Source of the DNA: Alloacidobacterium dinghuense
GTDB lineage: Bacteria; Acidobacteriota; Terriglobia; Terriglobales; Acidobacteriaceae
Assembly: GCF_014274465.1 (NCBI RefSeq)
Contig: NZ_CP060394.1
Span: 1,550,001 to 1,614,000, forward strand
Length of the DNA: 64,000 nt
Direction: 5' to 3'
Made by a program: the position numbers and the translations under genes. The notes below the pieces were generated by a model. The model was not told the DNA's origin. It saw nothing but the letters and a program-made list of their open reading frames with translations, and made no database searches. Below, piece by piece: positions 12,201 through 17,777 of this stretch; positions within the stretch are counted from its first letter, which is position 1, and every line of letters starts with the position of its first letter.

Positions 12201-13484
12201 TCACGCGGACTCAGTTGTGCTTGACGTTTCGGAGGTCGAGTTTGTTCGACGCGCTCCTCGTTGAAACACGAGAGCTGCAGCACCACGCAGCCGAGCGATT
12301 TCGCCTTCATGAGTCGGCTTGATCACAGGCGGAGTACCGGCCAAAGTGAGAGTAGCAACCTCTTTCTCGATCACCGGTCCAAAACGATGCCAAGTGGATG
12401 TGAGGTCGCCCGCAATCAGAATCATGCTTGGGGAAACGCCGGCGATAATTGTCCGCAGTCCGCGGCCAATCCACGTGGCCTGCATGGTGAGGGCTTGCGC
12501 TGCAGCCGAATCACCTCCCTCTGCGAGATTGAGCAACTCCTGAAATGGGACAGAAGGTCCTTTCGGTCGAAGCTCCCGATAATAACGCAAGGCGGCCCGG
12601 CTCGAACTGAAAACCTCCCAGCACCCCTTCTTTCCGCATCCGCAACGAGGACCATTGGGATCGATAGGAACATGGCCGAACTCTCCCGCCATTCCGTTAT
12701 GACCGGCGACTAACTGTCCGTTGGTAAGAACGCAGGTTCCGACACCCTCGGCGACTGCGACCAGCACGGCATCGCGTACTCCATCCATTCGCGCGAAGGT
12801 AAGTTCTGCGAGCAAGCAGGCAGTTGCATCATTCTCCATCATGACGGGCATGCCCATCCTCGTCTCGACCAGTTTCTTGATATCGAAGTCTGCCCATTTC
12901 AGATTGGGGGCAAATATCAGCCGCTGTGTGGTGGGGTTAATTCTTCCGGGCAGACTGATGCCGATGCCCTCTGTCGATTTGCGCGGCGCATTGTGGTGCA
13001 TTCGCTGTATGCAGTCGATGATCAGTCGCATAGAGGCTTCCGGATCCGACGTAAGCGGCACTGGCCAACGCGAAAGCAATCGCCCATTCAGGTCCACGAG
13101 TGCGACGCTCGCCTGTTTTGGATGAATGTCGACCGCGATCGCCACCAAATCTTCGTTCAGCCCGACCATTGTTGGTCTGCGTCCTCGGGGAAGCGAACCC
13201 ATTGCGCCTTCGCGCACCCAATTTTCACCGATGAGCTGCTCGACGATTTGCGAGATCGTGCTCCTGCCAAGGCCCGATCGCCGCGCCAGGTCCGCGCGGG
13301 AAATAGGCTGGCTGGCCCGGATGAGTTCGAGGACGATATCCCGGTTGATGATCCGGGCTGTTTCACTCGAAGCGAGCTGCAATTCAGCCAGATCGATGAG
13401 TCTTATGCCATGCCTGTCGTGTCGCAAATCTCCTGAACCCCCACGCCCAAGACTGCGATAAAGCGTTCCCAACCTCGATGACAA
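12201..13484 (-). CDS. ROK-family transcriptional regulator
   Basis: Sugar-responsive repressor of the NagC/XylR type. An N-terminal winged helix (about 42-95; ISRADLARRSGLGRSTIS is the turn-helix) precedes a sugar-kinase-like ROK domain from about residue 110. The kinase domain keeps MMENDATA (215-222) and the ROK zinc site: His271 with Cys281, Cys283 and Cys288 in PRCGCGKKGCWE. The domain order is that of a regulator and not of a free glucokinase. It is the first gene of the leftward esterase cluster and diverges from the 1261-residue receptor gene across a 507-bp gap, so it probably controls both directions in response to a pentose or related sugar. The start used gives a full N-terminal extension before the helix-turn-helix; an internal start is possible. 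Confidence 0.9.
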   Translation of the reverse strand: MSSRLGTLYRSLGRGGSGDLRHDRHGIRLIDLAELQLASSETARIINRDIVLELIRASQPISRADLARRSGLGRSTISQIVEQLIGENWVREGAMGSLPRGRRPTMVGLNEDLVAIAVDIHPKQASVALVDLNGRLLSRWPVPLTSDPEASMRLIIDCIQRMHHNAPRKSTEGIGISLPGRINPTTQRLIFAPNLKWADFDIKKLVETRMGMPVMMENDATACLLAELTFARMDGVRDAVLVAVAEGVGTCVLTNGQLVAGHNGMAGEFGHVPIDPNGPRCGCGKKGCWEVFSSSRAALRYYRELRPKGPSVPFQELLNLAEGGDSAAAQALTMQATWIGRGLRTIIAGVSPSMILIAGDLTSTWHRFGPVIEKEVATLTLAGTPPVIKPTHEGEIARLRGAAALVFQRGARRTNSTSETSSTTESA

Positions 13485-13853
13485 CCGAGATATCTACCGG
13501 AGAAAAGGAAGAGTACCAGCATGCGATGCTTTCTACGAGCAGATAAGGTCTCAAGTCTAATGCAATTTGTTTGTGATGCAAAAGAAATTATGAACCTGGG
13601 TCTAGAGAGATAAGGATCGCGGCCGCCCGCTTCAAAGCCACAGCACGTATGAATCTTAAATAAAACGAATTATCTGATGTTAACGGTTTCATCGATTCTA
13701 AATGCAGCTCTCCGTAAGGAAGCAGGATCAAGCCGTTATTCAGTGATGAAATGCCCCGCTCATATGTAATAAAAGCAGAGTTGATTGCGGCTGCATACAG
13801 AACGATAATCCTGCAGAAAGCCTTAGTATTCCCAGCAAAAATAAGTTTTACTC
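13485..13853. other. Intergenic region between divergent ROK and receptor genes
   Basis: No convincing gene. The stretch is AT-richer than its surroundings, especially 13640-13850, as expected for a shared control region. I could not identify a clear ROK operator or a strong leftward promoter by eye. The rightward promoter and leader are listed separately. Confidence 0.5.
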
Positions 13854-13883
13854 TTGACAGTGTCTAAATTCTGTATCTATAGT
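13854..13883 (+). promoter_or_regulatory. Sigma-70-type promoter of the receptor gene
   Basis: TTGACA (13854-13859) matches the -35 consensus perfectly and TATAGT (13878-13883) matches the -10 at five of six positions, with an 18-bp spacer. Transcription would begin near 13890, which is the first base of the left arm of the structured leader described next. Confidence 0.7.
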
Positions 13884-13889
13884 TTCGGT

Positions 13890-13966
13890 CGCTAACAAAA
13901 GTGGGATCTCGTGAATCGAGAAAAAGAGGAGATCGAGCTTCCGCGCGGAGGGCTCGTTTGTTAGCG
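13890..13966 (+). ncRNA. Candidate structured 5' leader RNA (three-way junction) before the receptor gene
   Basis: The predicted transcript starts with CGCTAACAAA, which pairs perfectly with TTTGTTAGCG at 13957-13966 (10-bp closing stem). Inside lie two further helices in tandem: GATCTC/GAGATC (13905-13910 with 13929-13934) and, directly abutting it, an eight-pair hairpin from 13935 to 13955 (GAGC/GCTC, then TTCC/GGAG with one U-G pair, loop GCGC). Only five bases join helix 1 to 2, none joins 2 to 3, and one joins 3 to 1, so the element is a compact three-way junction. The Shine-Dalgarno AGGAGG (13975-13980) begins eight bases after it. CTTCC in the third helix could alternatively pair with that GGAGG, so an on/off switch is possible. 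This is a paper fold; no known riboswitch class was recognised. Confidence 0.5.
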
Positions 13967-13991
13967 AAATCTTCAGGAGGCAAGGCAAAAA

Positions 13992-16900
13992 ATGAATGGG
14001 ATATCTGGCGCTCTTATACGGCGAGGACTAAAGCAAGACCTGCGAAAACACTGCAGAGTCGGTCACTGGCTCTTTTCTCTCATCGGACTAGCGTTGTTCC
14101 TTGTCGGAGGACCGCTAACCCAGGCGCAGACCACGGCCCAGTTGACGGGGACTGTGCAGGATAACTCGGGCGGCATGATTCCGGGCGCCCAGGTAACGCT
14201 GATCAATGAATCGACTTCCGCATCACGCGTCGTTCAGACGAATGCCGAGGGATTGTATGCGTTTCCTGCGCTTGTCCCGGATTCCTACACGCTGAAGGTC
14301 GACGCCAAGGGTTTTCAAGTCAAGGAGATTACTGGAATCATGCTGCACGCCGGAGACCAACGAACGATTCCGGCGTTCACGCTAACCGTTGGCTCTGAAT
14401 TGACAACCGTCACAGTGAGTGCGGCCTCTGAGATAATTTCCACGGATAGCGGACAGCGCACGAATGTCCTGGACTCCAAACAAATCAATAACCTGGTTCT
14501 TGTGGGCCGTGACACGACAGAACTGCTGAAAGTGTTACCGGGCGCTACAACGGTCTCCTCGGGTCTGACTCAAAACAGTCCGATGTACAACGATCTCAAC
14601 GTGTCAGTTCAGCAAAGTGCGATCGGCAACGGTATCAACATTAACGGCGCCGTGAATCGCGGCGGCACGGCGTTGCTCGCTGACGGTGCCAACATCATTG
14701 ACCCGGGCAACATGGCGTCGTCTGTCTCGATTGTCAATCCGGAAATGACTGCGGAAGTCAGTGTGCAGGCGTCGAACTTCGGCGCCGATACGGCATTTGG
14801 TCCGGTAGTGGTAAGCACCATCAGTAAATCGGGAACGGATCGGTATCACGGCGAAGCTTACTTCGATGCGCGGAACAGCGTTTTGAATGCGAACGACTGG
14901 CAGAGCAACCATCAGGGAATCCCACAGGGGTCACAACACTACTACTATCCAGGTGGAAACTTTGGCGGCCCAGTGCCTGGTACCAACAAGAAACTCCTCT
15001 TCTGGGGAGGCTATGAGCGGTGGCTGCAGAACCAGGGCAACGCGAACGTGCTGAAGTCCTACATCCCCAGTCCGGAGATGATGGCTGGAGACTTCACTAA
15101 CGACAATGCAGATAACCAAGCCCTTTGCCCTCAGGGATTTTTCGCGACTCCGAAGTCAAGCTATCCTCAGGGCGCATGGTGCAATGATCTTTCCGGAACG
15201 GTCTTTCCGGACGGCAGCAGTATTCCGGTGAATACCTCCGCTGCTGCGAACGCCGGTAATAAGATTCCCGCGCAATTCATCGATCCAGGCGCACAGGCGC
15301 TGGCCAAAATCTGGCCAAAGGCCAACGCGAACCCGGCGACGACTCCCGGTGGTTACAACTACTTTGAGCCTATTCCGAACCTGAATAACGGCTGGATCTA
15401 CCGCTTCAGGATTGACTATCAACTCGGGGAAAATACAAAGATTTACGGGTCCTATCAGCAGGCATACGATTCGCAACTGGCGCAGGGTAATGGTGCACAC
15501 CTGTACTGGACCCCTGGTAATGCCATCCCCTACCCTGGCGGCGGTGAATCCGAGGCTTTCTACGGCAAATCGATCGCGGGTCACTTCGTACACAACTTCA
15601 ACTCCACAACCACCAACGACTTCATGGCGGCCTGGGCCTTCGGCAGCTTCCCGTTTGTCCAGCCAGACCCATCAGCGGCCAGCCGGACCACGCTGGGCTA
15701 TCCTTACGGCAAGGTCTTTCAGACCAAATCGCTCAACATACCGGCTTACAGCAGTGCAGGGACGGCCAGCTTTCCAGATTTCTCGCAGGCTTCTATCTTT
15801 GAGAACCCTCCAGGTCAGTATGCGGTTAAGAAGGAAGCCCCTCAGTTCAATGATGTGTTGACCAAGGTCTGGGGCGCTCACACGGTGAAGATGGGCGGAT
15901 TTACGCAGAACACCGATAATTTCCAGAGTACTTTCAGCACCTACCAGGATGGAAATCTCACGGTTCGCGCAGGTCAGTCGCCGAATATCTTTACTGGGAA
16001 TCAGCTTGGTTCACCGAATAACCCTGTGGCCAACTTTACGATGGGTGTGCTGACGGGTTACAGCGAAAACGATTCGTCTCCGATTGCGGACACGGCCTAC
16101 CAGGCAACGGCATTTTTTGTGGCCGATACCTGGAAAACAACTCGGCGCCTGACGCTGGAGCTAGGCGCGCGCGTTGAGCACATAGGTCATTGGTATGACC
16201 GTGGTCGCGTCGGTATGGCTGTTTTCTATCCTGACCGAGTATTGCCTGACTTCAACGCGGGCAAGTACGCTCCGGGATACTACTGGCACGCCATTGATGC
16301 GGGTGTTCCGCTTAGCGGTCAGCCGAACCGCTTTGCCTATTTCGATCCGCGAATAGGTCTTGCCTATGACCTTCACGGAGACGGCAACACCGTTATCCGA
16401 GGCGGATGGGGCGCCTACCGTTTCGTCACGCAGGTGAATGATGTTTCCGGTCCGCTGGTAACCGCACAGCACGTGCTGAACTATAACCTGCCCGGTCAAA
16501 AGACCGTCATGCTGTCGCAACTCAACCAACTGGCATATAAACCCTGCACATCTCAATGCGGAAGCGGATCACAGACGGGCTTCGATCCAAGCGACTATAG
16601 TCAACCGCTGACGTATGCCTACAATCTAACCGTCGACCAGAGGTTGAAGTGGAATTCTGTGCTCGATATTGCATACGTTGGGAGCCAAACCAGCCAGCTT
16701 TCCGATAATAGCGAGGGCATTGAAGGCAGTAATTTTGCCGCACTCGCCGATCAGAACAAAACTCCGATCGGAGCGTTCTTCCAACCTGACCCAGTCACCG
16801 GTGTGCTCTCCACCAATCCGGAAAACCTGGGAACGAATCCTGGCAACGGCGGCGGAACCTCTACCGGAAACAAGGCGGCAGATTACCATCCTTATGGTTA

Positions 16901-17777
16901 TGCATATGGCACCGCTTCCGCCTATATGAATCAAGGCATCTCTTACACCAACTACAACGCATTGCAGGTGGCGTGGATCAAGACAGCCGGCCACGTCAAT
17001 TTCAACTTGAATGGGACTTGGTCGAAAACGCTAGGTTCAAGCCTGCAGGAAAATCCGTTTGATATTAACCTGAACTACGGCCCGACCGCGGTTGACCGGC
17101 CATTTGTCTTCAATGCCTCCTATACCTATCAAACAGGGAAGATCAATAACTTCAATCGGTTCGTCAATGGGCTGTTGGGAGATTGGACGATCTCCGGCAT
17201 TTCCACGTGGCAGGGAGGCGGGTACATTCCCGCTGCGCTTGGAAATGGCGTGCCGAACTTTGGTCTGGGACTAACGTATACCGGGTTGCCAGCGGATGCA
17301 AAGGCGCAGGGCATTACCAGTGGTATTGGTTCTGCAGCATACTTCGGGACGGACGCTCCTGTCCCGATTCTCCCCGCACTGACTTGCAATCCAACCGCGG
17401 ATCTTAAGCACTACCAACGTATCAATGGAAACTGCTTTATTGCGCCGCCGGTGGGATCGCAGGGAGGTCAGAAATTCCCCTACATGAGTGCCGGTGCCTA
17501 CTTTAATAACGATCTGGCACTTTACAGGTCGTTTCCCCTGCCCTTCCGTGAAGGGCAGCAGATCCAGTTCCGGGCCAGCGCCTTTAACTGGCTGAACCAT
17601 CCGCTCCCGGGTTTCAGTACCCTGAGCGGAGGCCCACTCTCGTTGGCTTACAACGTGGACTACGCCAGCAAAACCATCACGCGAAACTATAACACCAGCA
17701 CCTTCGGTGTTATGGACACAAAGACCGGCGCTCCTTACCAGCGCATCATCGAATTGAATGTGAAGTATTTCTTCTAG
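13992..17777 (+). CDS. TonB-dependent receptor with carboxypeptidase-regulatory domain
   Basis: Full-length 1261-residue outer-membrane receptor. An N-terminal signal (LFSLIGLALFLVGGPLTQAQ) is followed by a carboxypeptidase-regulatory-like domain (about 48-140; TGTVQDNSGGMIPGAQVTL), a plug (about 150-290) and a large barrel ending in NVKYFF with a terminal Phe. It should import oligosaccharides using TonB energy. The start has AGGAGG eleven bases upstream. It diverges from the ROK regulator and esterase genes, so xylan- or pectin-derived oligosaccharides are the probable ligands, by inference only. A strong promoter and an unusual structured leader precede it, and a strong terminator follows it, so it is probably its own transcript. 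A TPR protein lies downstream, as it does for the other complete receptor in this window. Confidence 0.95.
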   Translation: MNGISGALIRRGLKQDLRKHCRVGHWLFSLIGLALFLVGGPLTQAQTTAQLTGTVQDNSGGMIPGAQVTLINESTSASRVVQTNAEGLYAFPALVPDSYTLKVDAKGFQVKEITGIMLHAGDQRTIPAFTLTVGSELTTVTVSAASEIISTDSGQRTNVLDSKQINNLVLVGRDTTELLKVLPGATTVSSGLTQNSPMYNDLNVSVQQSAIGNGININGAVNRGGTALLADGANIIDPGNMASSVSIVNPEMTAEVSVQASNFGADTAFGPVVVSTISKSGTDRYHGEAYFDARNSVLNANDWQSNHQGIPQGSQHYYYPGGNFGGPVPGTNKKLLFWGGYERWLQNQGNANVLKSYIPSPEMMAGDFTNDNADNQALCPQGFFATPKSSYPQGAWCNDLSGTVFPDGSSIPVNTSAAANAGNKIPAQFIDPGAQALAKIWPKANANPATTPGGYNYFEPIPNLNNGWIYRFRIDYQLGENTKIYGSYQQAYDSQLAQGNGAHLYWTPGNAIPYPGGGESEAFYGKSIAGHFVHNFNSTTTNDFMAAWAFGSFPFVQPDPSAASRTTLGYPYGKVFQTKSLNIPAYSSAGTASFPDFSQASIFENPPGQYAVKKEAPQFNDVLTKVWGAHTVKMGGFTQNTDNFQSTFSTYQDGNLTVRAGQSPNIFTGNQLGSPNNPVANFTMGVLTGYSENDSSPIADTAYQATAFFVADTWKTTRRLTLELGARVEHIGHWYDRGRVGMAVFYPDRVLPDFNAGKYAPGYYWHAIDAGVPLSGQPNRFAYFDPRIGLAYDLHGDGNTVIRGGWGAYRFVTQVNDVSGPLVTAQHVLNYNLPGQKTVMLSQLNQLAYKPCTSQCGSGSQTGFDPSDYSQPLTYAYNLTVDQRLKWNSVLDIAYVGSQTSQLSDNSEGIEGSNFAALADQNKTPIGAFFQPDPVTGVLSTNPENLGTNPGNGGGTSTGNKAADYHPYGYAYGTASAYMNQGISYTNYNALQVAWIKTAGHVNFNLNGTWSKTLGSSLQENPFDINLNYGPTAVDRPFVFNASYTYQTGKINNFNRFVNGLLGDWTISGISTWQGGGYIPAALGNGVPNFGLGLTYTGLPADAKAQGITSGIGSAAYFGTDAPVPILPALTCNPTADLKHYQRINGNCFIAPPVGSQGGQKFPYMSAGAYFNNDLALYRSFPLPFREGQQIQFRASAFNWLNHPLPGFSTLSGGPLSLAYNVDYASKTITRNYNTSTFGVMDTKTGAPYQRIIELNVKYFF

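Follow-up and report, generated by a model that had tools for sequence, protein, structure and literature searches.

What does a perfect 10-bp inverted repeat do at the very start of the predicted transcript of an outer-membrane receptor gene in Alloacidobacterium dinghuense? The original prediction, made within a window of 64,000 nucleotides (the whole stretch of DNA analysed), took the arms of this repeat to close a metabolite-sensing three-way junction in front of a SusC-like receptor. To our knowledge, the control of the many SusC-like receptors of the Acidobacteria is little described, and among the titles listed in a survey of the literature on TonB-dependent receptors, xylan or ROK proteins in Acidobacteria, none announces a ROK-controlled receptor.

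Materials and Methods

Receptor orthologues were taken from 100 relatives (28 matched), from 398 genomes of the family (74 matched, E up to 1e-250), from two genera (7 of 12 and 4 of 9 genomes matched) and from GTDB contigs (18 loci). Co-occurrence of the arms with a regulator was counted over a set of 44 leaders. Excluded from the counts were L065-L071, L075 and L081, which duplicate loci carrying G handles, and L074, which has no start; L018-L036, L038 and L130-L135 lie outside the 44-leader set. The leader L040 (genome G199) has 52 bp of upstream sequence before the contig ends and is uninformative, and the upstream stretches of L058 (486 bp) and L073 (635 bp) are short. Start codons were picked by Shine-Dalgarno score; that of L044 may be misassigned, there being a TTGACA several hundred bp farther upstream. 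Two receptor trees were built, the first of 30 sequences (L053, with an in-frame stop, was dropped) and the second of 22 drawn from those 30. Stem pairs were counted by a script operating on the arms; the MAFFT alignment A1 had misaligned the 3' arms.

Results

The receptor gene (13992-17777, forward strand) encodes 1261 residues, and domain searches (OMP_b-brl_4 and CarboxypepD_reg) describe the product as an outer-membrane beta-barrel with a carboxypeptidase-regulatory-like domain; its named relatives come from Silvibacterium and other Acidobacteria. Upstream on the same strand lie a predicted -35 box, TTGACA (13854-13859), and, after an 18-bp spacer, a predicted -10 box, TATAGT (13878-13883), from which a transcription start at about 13890 is predicted. 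The 5' arm of the repeat, CGCTAACAAA (13890-13899), begins at this predicted +1. The 3' arm, TTTGTTAGCG (13957-13966), is its exact reverse complement, so that CGCTAACAAA is read there on the reverse strand, and it is followed 8 nt later by the Shine-Dalgarno sequence AGGAGG (13975-13980) and then by the receptor ATG at 13992. Two inner helices (13905-13934 and 13935-13955) occupy the interior, the second containing a CTTCC (13938-13942) that could pair with the Shine-Dalgarno sequence. On inspection of the sequence all coordinates of the original prediction proved correct, and sequence and RNAfold together bear out the promoter, the 10-bp stem, the two inner helices, the AGGAGG and the CTTCC.

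Folded alone, the window leader (13885-13991) adopts the terminal stem and both inner helices at -30.5 kcal/mol, the ten stem pairs having probabilities of 0.69-0.99. At -27.4 kcal/mol, the fold in which CTTCC pairs with the Shine-Dalgarno sequence lies 1.5 kcal/mol above its competitor (-28.9 kcal/mol). The folding energy itself is ordinary (z = -1.02; an equal or better fold in 29 of 200 shuffles), and so is the occurrence of such a repeat: counting perfect inverted repeats with arms of 10 bp or more and spacers of 3-100, the window has 11, and five Markov-1 random sequences have 11, 6, 8, 6 and 4. Searched as DNA against its own genome, a single 6.27-Mb contig, the leader gave eight matches with E values of 10 or less; the only strong one was the leader itself, and the next had an E value of 0.06 over 18 bases. 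It is the return of both arms in four related leaders, with dissimilar interiors, that sets the leader apart from chance.

These four leaders, with the window's own (G000), belong to genomes G214, G220, G280 and G288, whose receptors are 85%, 74%, 74% and 65% identical to that of the window. All five keep TTGACA and CTATAGT, and all five carry the 5' arm at the predicted +1 with 10 of 10 positions identical. The core of the 3' arm, TGTT(A/G)GC, is likewise present in all five, 9-13 nt ahead of GGAGG, with A in the window and G in the other four, so that a U-A pair becomes U.G. Over the 50 stem pair cells of the five leaders, 43 are Watson-Crick, four are U.G and three are broken, the breaks being 3' arm changes at or beside the stem ends. 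Both arms have been kept while most of the intergenic and leader sequence has strongly diverged, apart from the promoter, the Shine-Dalgarno sequence and a few short boxes. The invariance of the 5' arm, with every break coming from the 3' arm, argues for a constraint on sequence more than on pairing: the arms are conserved by sequence, and the junction is not conserved.

This last result bears directly on a ligand-sensing RNA, in which the three-way junction would bind a metabolite and toggle between folds that free and sequester the Shine-Dalgarno sequence. Two such exclusive folds were predicted, and in the window both can indeed be computed within 1.5 kcal/mol of each other, as described above, which speaks for a switch of this kind. 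However, between the arms the five leaders differ in sequence and in fold and offer no alignment, leaving no conserved core or junction, and neither the inner helices nor the alternative fold is conserved, since CTTCC is present in the window alone among the five (G220 has just TCTCT). Nor does Rfam hold a match to the leader, whether at the gathering threshold or with E values of up to 5 allowed. We therefore regard a riboswitch as very improbable, and the metabolite-sensing junction of the original prediction as unsupported by the comparison.

A stem without a sensor is a more serious competitor. The arms would here close the mRNA at about +1 and protect it from 5'-end-dependent decay, the variable interior serving as a spacer. 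In keeping with this, the terminal stem is predicted to be closed with high probability in all five leaders despite their unlike interiors (arm positions 2-7 pair with the 3' arm at 0.96 or above), 47 of the 50 cells hold standard pairs, the A/G difference preserves pairing, and the arms stay in place relative to the predicted start and the Shine-Dalgarno sequence. Against it, the 5' arm does not vary, the folding energies of the five leaders are ordinary (z from -1.49 to 0.04), and the Shine-Dalgarno sequence is not uniformly free, that of G220 being predicted to pair at 0.52-0.97 over most of its length. The original prediction named a lack of conserved pairing among orthologous leaders as its refutation; pairing is in fact kept in the four, but the compensatory double changes that would have spoken for RNA are missing (0 of 50 cells). 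Although it is the main rival to the reading that we favour below, we consider a functional 5'-terminal stem, as the explanation of the arms, to be somewhat unlikely.

The distribution of the arms points elsewhere. Upstream of the receptor, and divergent from it, lies a ROK-family regulator gene (12201-13484, reverse strand; start codon uncertain; Pfam ROK at 201 bits against a cut-off of 22.9), whose product we propose as the arm binder. Its N-terminus is winged-helix-like, helix-turn-helix models matching residues 42-92 weakly and below their cut-offs. Sequence matches in the PDB include Lmo0178, Mlc and XylR (4ija, a distant match at E 1.2e-11). With the NCBIfam models for NagC and Mlc the regulator scores 163 and 137 bits, far under their respective cut-offs of 650 and 530, and therefore cannot be assigned to either. 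Beyond it lie a GDSL-lipase-like gene and a glucuronyl-esterase-like gene. The same genome has a ROK paralogue at C1:3943748-3944926 (L149), 61% identical to the window regulator and with an in-frame TGA. Across the class (399 genomes, E up to 1e-200) no additional regulator came up besides the window's own.

Both arms are present in 5 of the 44 leaders, and each of these five has a divergent upstream ROK gene with an 80-100% identical protein. Setting aside G199, the uninformative one of the 39 arm-less leaders, whose genome has the regulator (85%) on another contig, none of the remaining 38 has the arms or a close regulator beside it; L050 has a relative at 53%. In all five regulator-linked leaders the stem falls at the extreme 5' end of the predicted transcript. 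An autonomous mRNA stabiliser does not predict that the arms should be absent from every informative leader lacking the ROK gene. It is important to note that, since the regulator and the leader adjoin, their co-occurrence may partly reflect physical linkage.

The segment SGLGRST, which we take to be the recognition helix from general knowledge of winged helix-turn-helix proteins, is found in six of six regulators (the five and that of G199). At the position of this putative helix where the six have glycine, all 25 other ROK relatives compared, the paralogue of the same genome included, have glutamine.

The receptor trees allow the linkage to be considered further. On the 22-receptor tree the five arm-bearing receptors do not form one clade (p-AU 1.4e-44); at least two changes in the presence of the arms are forced by its starred branches, three being the most parsimonious number. 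The receptor of G288 (L045/L139) falls in another clade, among arm-less receptors, while its regulator is nearest to those of G220 and G280 (86%). The arms therefore follow the regulator and not the receptor, and the G288 locus suggests that receptors have been swapped behind a stable regulatory block. The receptor of G107 is either sister to the other four arm-bearing receptors or not resolved from them. At this G107 locus no regulator is found next door; the 5' arm has become CGCCTAAGAAA and the 3' arm has gone, while the -35, -10 and Shine-Dalgarno sequences are retained. A GCTAAC at +1 is also seen in G036 and G206, where no regulator of this type adjoins (for G206, in the 486 bp of upstream sequence examined). 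Linkage by itself, with regulator, intergenic DNA and leader recombining as one block and the 3' arm a functionless relic, would fit the contiguity of the block and the joining in G288 of a G220/G280-type regulator to a receptor of another clade. It sits badly with the retention of both arms in sequence that has otherwise so largely diverged, and we rate it as quite improbable.

Reading in the regulator's direction, an AACAAA recurs on the regulator side of the intergenic region in five of six loci (window 13566-13571, reverse strand, within AATTTGTTTGTGATGCAAAAGAAATT at 13564-13589), against a shuffled mean of 0.53 and with none of 3000 shuffles reaching as high; in either orientation the count is again five of six (P 0.002), and in both cases the shuffles ignore relatedness. 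The sixth locus, G280, has GACAAA in its place. Five 6-mers, AACAAA included, are common to at least five of the six loci on the regulator side, where shuffles, again ignoring relatedness, average 0.12; three of the other four overlap within TATGCTTC. Scored with the arm matrix, the regulator-side site does well in G220 and G280, whereas it is weak, below 9, in G000, G214, G288 and G199. In the G280 intergenic region (L159), two more copies, CGCCAACAAC and CGCTGACAAA, sit close to the regulator gene, inverted and about 52 bp apart. By eye, 13564-13589 forms an imperfect dyad, which is not kept in full in the other loci compared.

Another sequence in these intergenic regions deserves mention. 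A box, TGTTAACGGTTTCA, at window positions 13678-13691 is matched in G220 (TGTTATCGGTTTCA) and G280 (TGGTAACGGTTTCA) and may be another operator.

Within the leaders the half-sites are everted (AACAAA ... TTTGTT) and lie 58-68 bp apart. Helical phasing of this spacing, as for a DNA loop, is unsupported by the values of 6.48, 5.52, 6.10, 6.00 and 6.29 turns, a result that is again more comfortable for an RNA stem, and no good partner half-site was seen beside either arm.

Exact copies of TCGCTAACAAA occur at five sites in the genome: two at the locus, two inside open reading frames and one before a hydrolase-like gene. The last (C1:3597986-3597996; L104 1501-1511) is 32 nt ahead of an alpha/beta-hydrolase-like gene's ATG, within the final part of a short open reading frame, and is possibly a second target or possibly chance. 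A genome-wide TCGCTAACAAA regulon is not evident, 95 sites being found at up to one mismatch against 131 for the reversed control. The two-armed pattern GCTAACAA-N40-70-TTGTTRGC matches 11 of the 398 family genomes, four of them through the arm-bearing leaders of G000, G214, G280 and G288 (G220 is one base off); the remaining seven matches are probably chance, because the reversed control matches 26 genomes.

The same receptor family offers a second view of this position. LacI-type sites, TAAANCGN(A/T)TTA, occur within 400 bp upstream in 20 of 43 receptor leaders, where 0.08 are expected; the carriers are L046, L048, L051, L053, L056, L011, L057, L059, L061-L064, L078, L072, L082, L037, L015-L017 and the window itself (13661-13672). 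By eye, the slot just past the -10 box in ROK-less orthologues is often taken by a LacI-type TAAANCGNTTTA site, which gives the slot the look of an operator position within this family of receptors. The pattern suggests widespread LacI-type control of the orthologous receptors. In the window's own genome, the LacI-type palindrome TGTTAGCGCTAACA was rejected as a wider signal, with six sites at up to two mismatches against 40 for the reversed control.

Discussion

The invariant 5' arm and its co-occurrence with a divergent ROK gene point to DNA operator sites, and our best reading of the locus is that the arms are probably ROK operator half-sites at a repressible receptor promoter. A ROK regulator with a DNA-binding type of N-terminus is encoded nearby, and a TTTGTT/AACAAA half-site is conserved at the promoter. 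One half-site would cover the predicted start and the other would lie in the leader near the Shine-Dalgarno sequence, with a further candidate on the regulator side. We infer three steps, namely binding, repression and release by ligand: with the sugar ligand absent, the ROK protein would occupy its sites and block the receptor promoter, and with the ligand present it would be released. At a guess, prompted by the neighbouring glucuronyl-esterase-like gene, the ligand is perhaps a xylan-derived sugar. A carbohydrate-responsive element before the receptor, as suggested in the original prediction, is plausible.

Several observations make us cautious about reading the arms as operator half-sites. 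The half-sites are everted, widely spaced and unphased and do not form a compact inward-facing dyad; the regulator has no evident regulon, and its regulator-side site is weak in some loci; and the placing of the 3' arm at a nearly constant distance before GGAGG would suit a role in RNA equally well. The inverted orientation of the two half-sites in the leader also lets the transcript form a 5'-terminal stem, which may add to mRNA stability and is unneeded to explain the conservation; possibly such a stem acts in addition to the operator. A stronger version, which we think unlikely, is a dual-purpose element in which inverted ROK half-sites, one at the beginning of the leader and one close to its end, double as the closing stem of the mRNA. 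The same bases would then carry both the repression of transcription and the stability or translation of the mRNA, and the two would be lost together.

A ROK regulator matched with a receptor of its own and with a predicted operator makes a directly testable switch, and the changed residue of the putative recognition helix, beside the predicted site, offers a natural experiment, if a small one, on the specificity of ROK proteins. The locus is also a reminder that an inverted repeat at +1 with the look of a stem can be a DNA site.

Three known systems are useful for comparison. In Escherichia coli, a 5' stem-loop is described as protecting ompA mRNA from 5'-end-dependent decay. Like it, the leaders described here place a predicted stem at the very 5' terminus of an outer-membrane protein's mRNA, with the Shine-Dalgarno sequence downstream; they differ from it in that the stem, known here from sequence, has a fixed sequence and is tied to the presence of a regulator gene. 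Among operators, the Bacillus xylO sequence contains TTTGTT.

The ROK-type regulator RokB of Streptomyces coelicolor binds TTTGTTC-N11-GAACAAA (PMC4856308). As in our proposal, its operators are built from TTTGTT/AACAAA half-sites, with one site covering a target gene's 5' end and others ahead of the gene for RokB itself. In contrast, its novH site is a compact 28-bp inward-facing repeat, whereas the arms here are everted and far apart; two genomic RokB sites are, however, said to lack a perfect repeat (PMC4856308). RokB also belongs to another phylum and acts on another target, and the sites of the present locus are predicted.

The XylR proteins of the Firmicutes are ROK sugar regulators encoded near hemicellulose genes, with a site over the promoter or 5' UTR (PMC2873477, PMC8579813). 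One XylR group has a 25-bp inverted repeat as its motif (PMC2873477, PMC8579813) and the targets are xylose utilisation genes, where ours is an outer-membrane receptor gene under a putative regulator that is only distantly related. Nevertheless, sites of the ROK protein XylR of Caldicellulosiruptor are reported to fall within 5' UTRs or to overlap candidate promoter elements (PMC8579813), and the like position of the arms, over the promoter and in the 5' UTR of the receptor gene, suggests repression.
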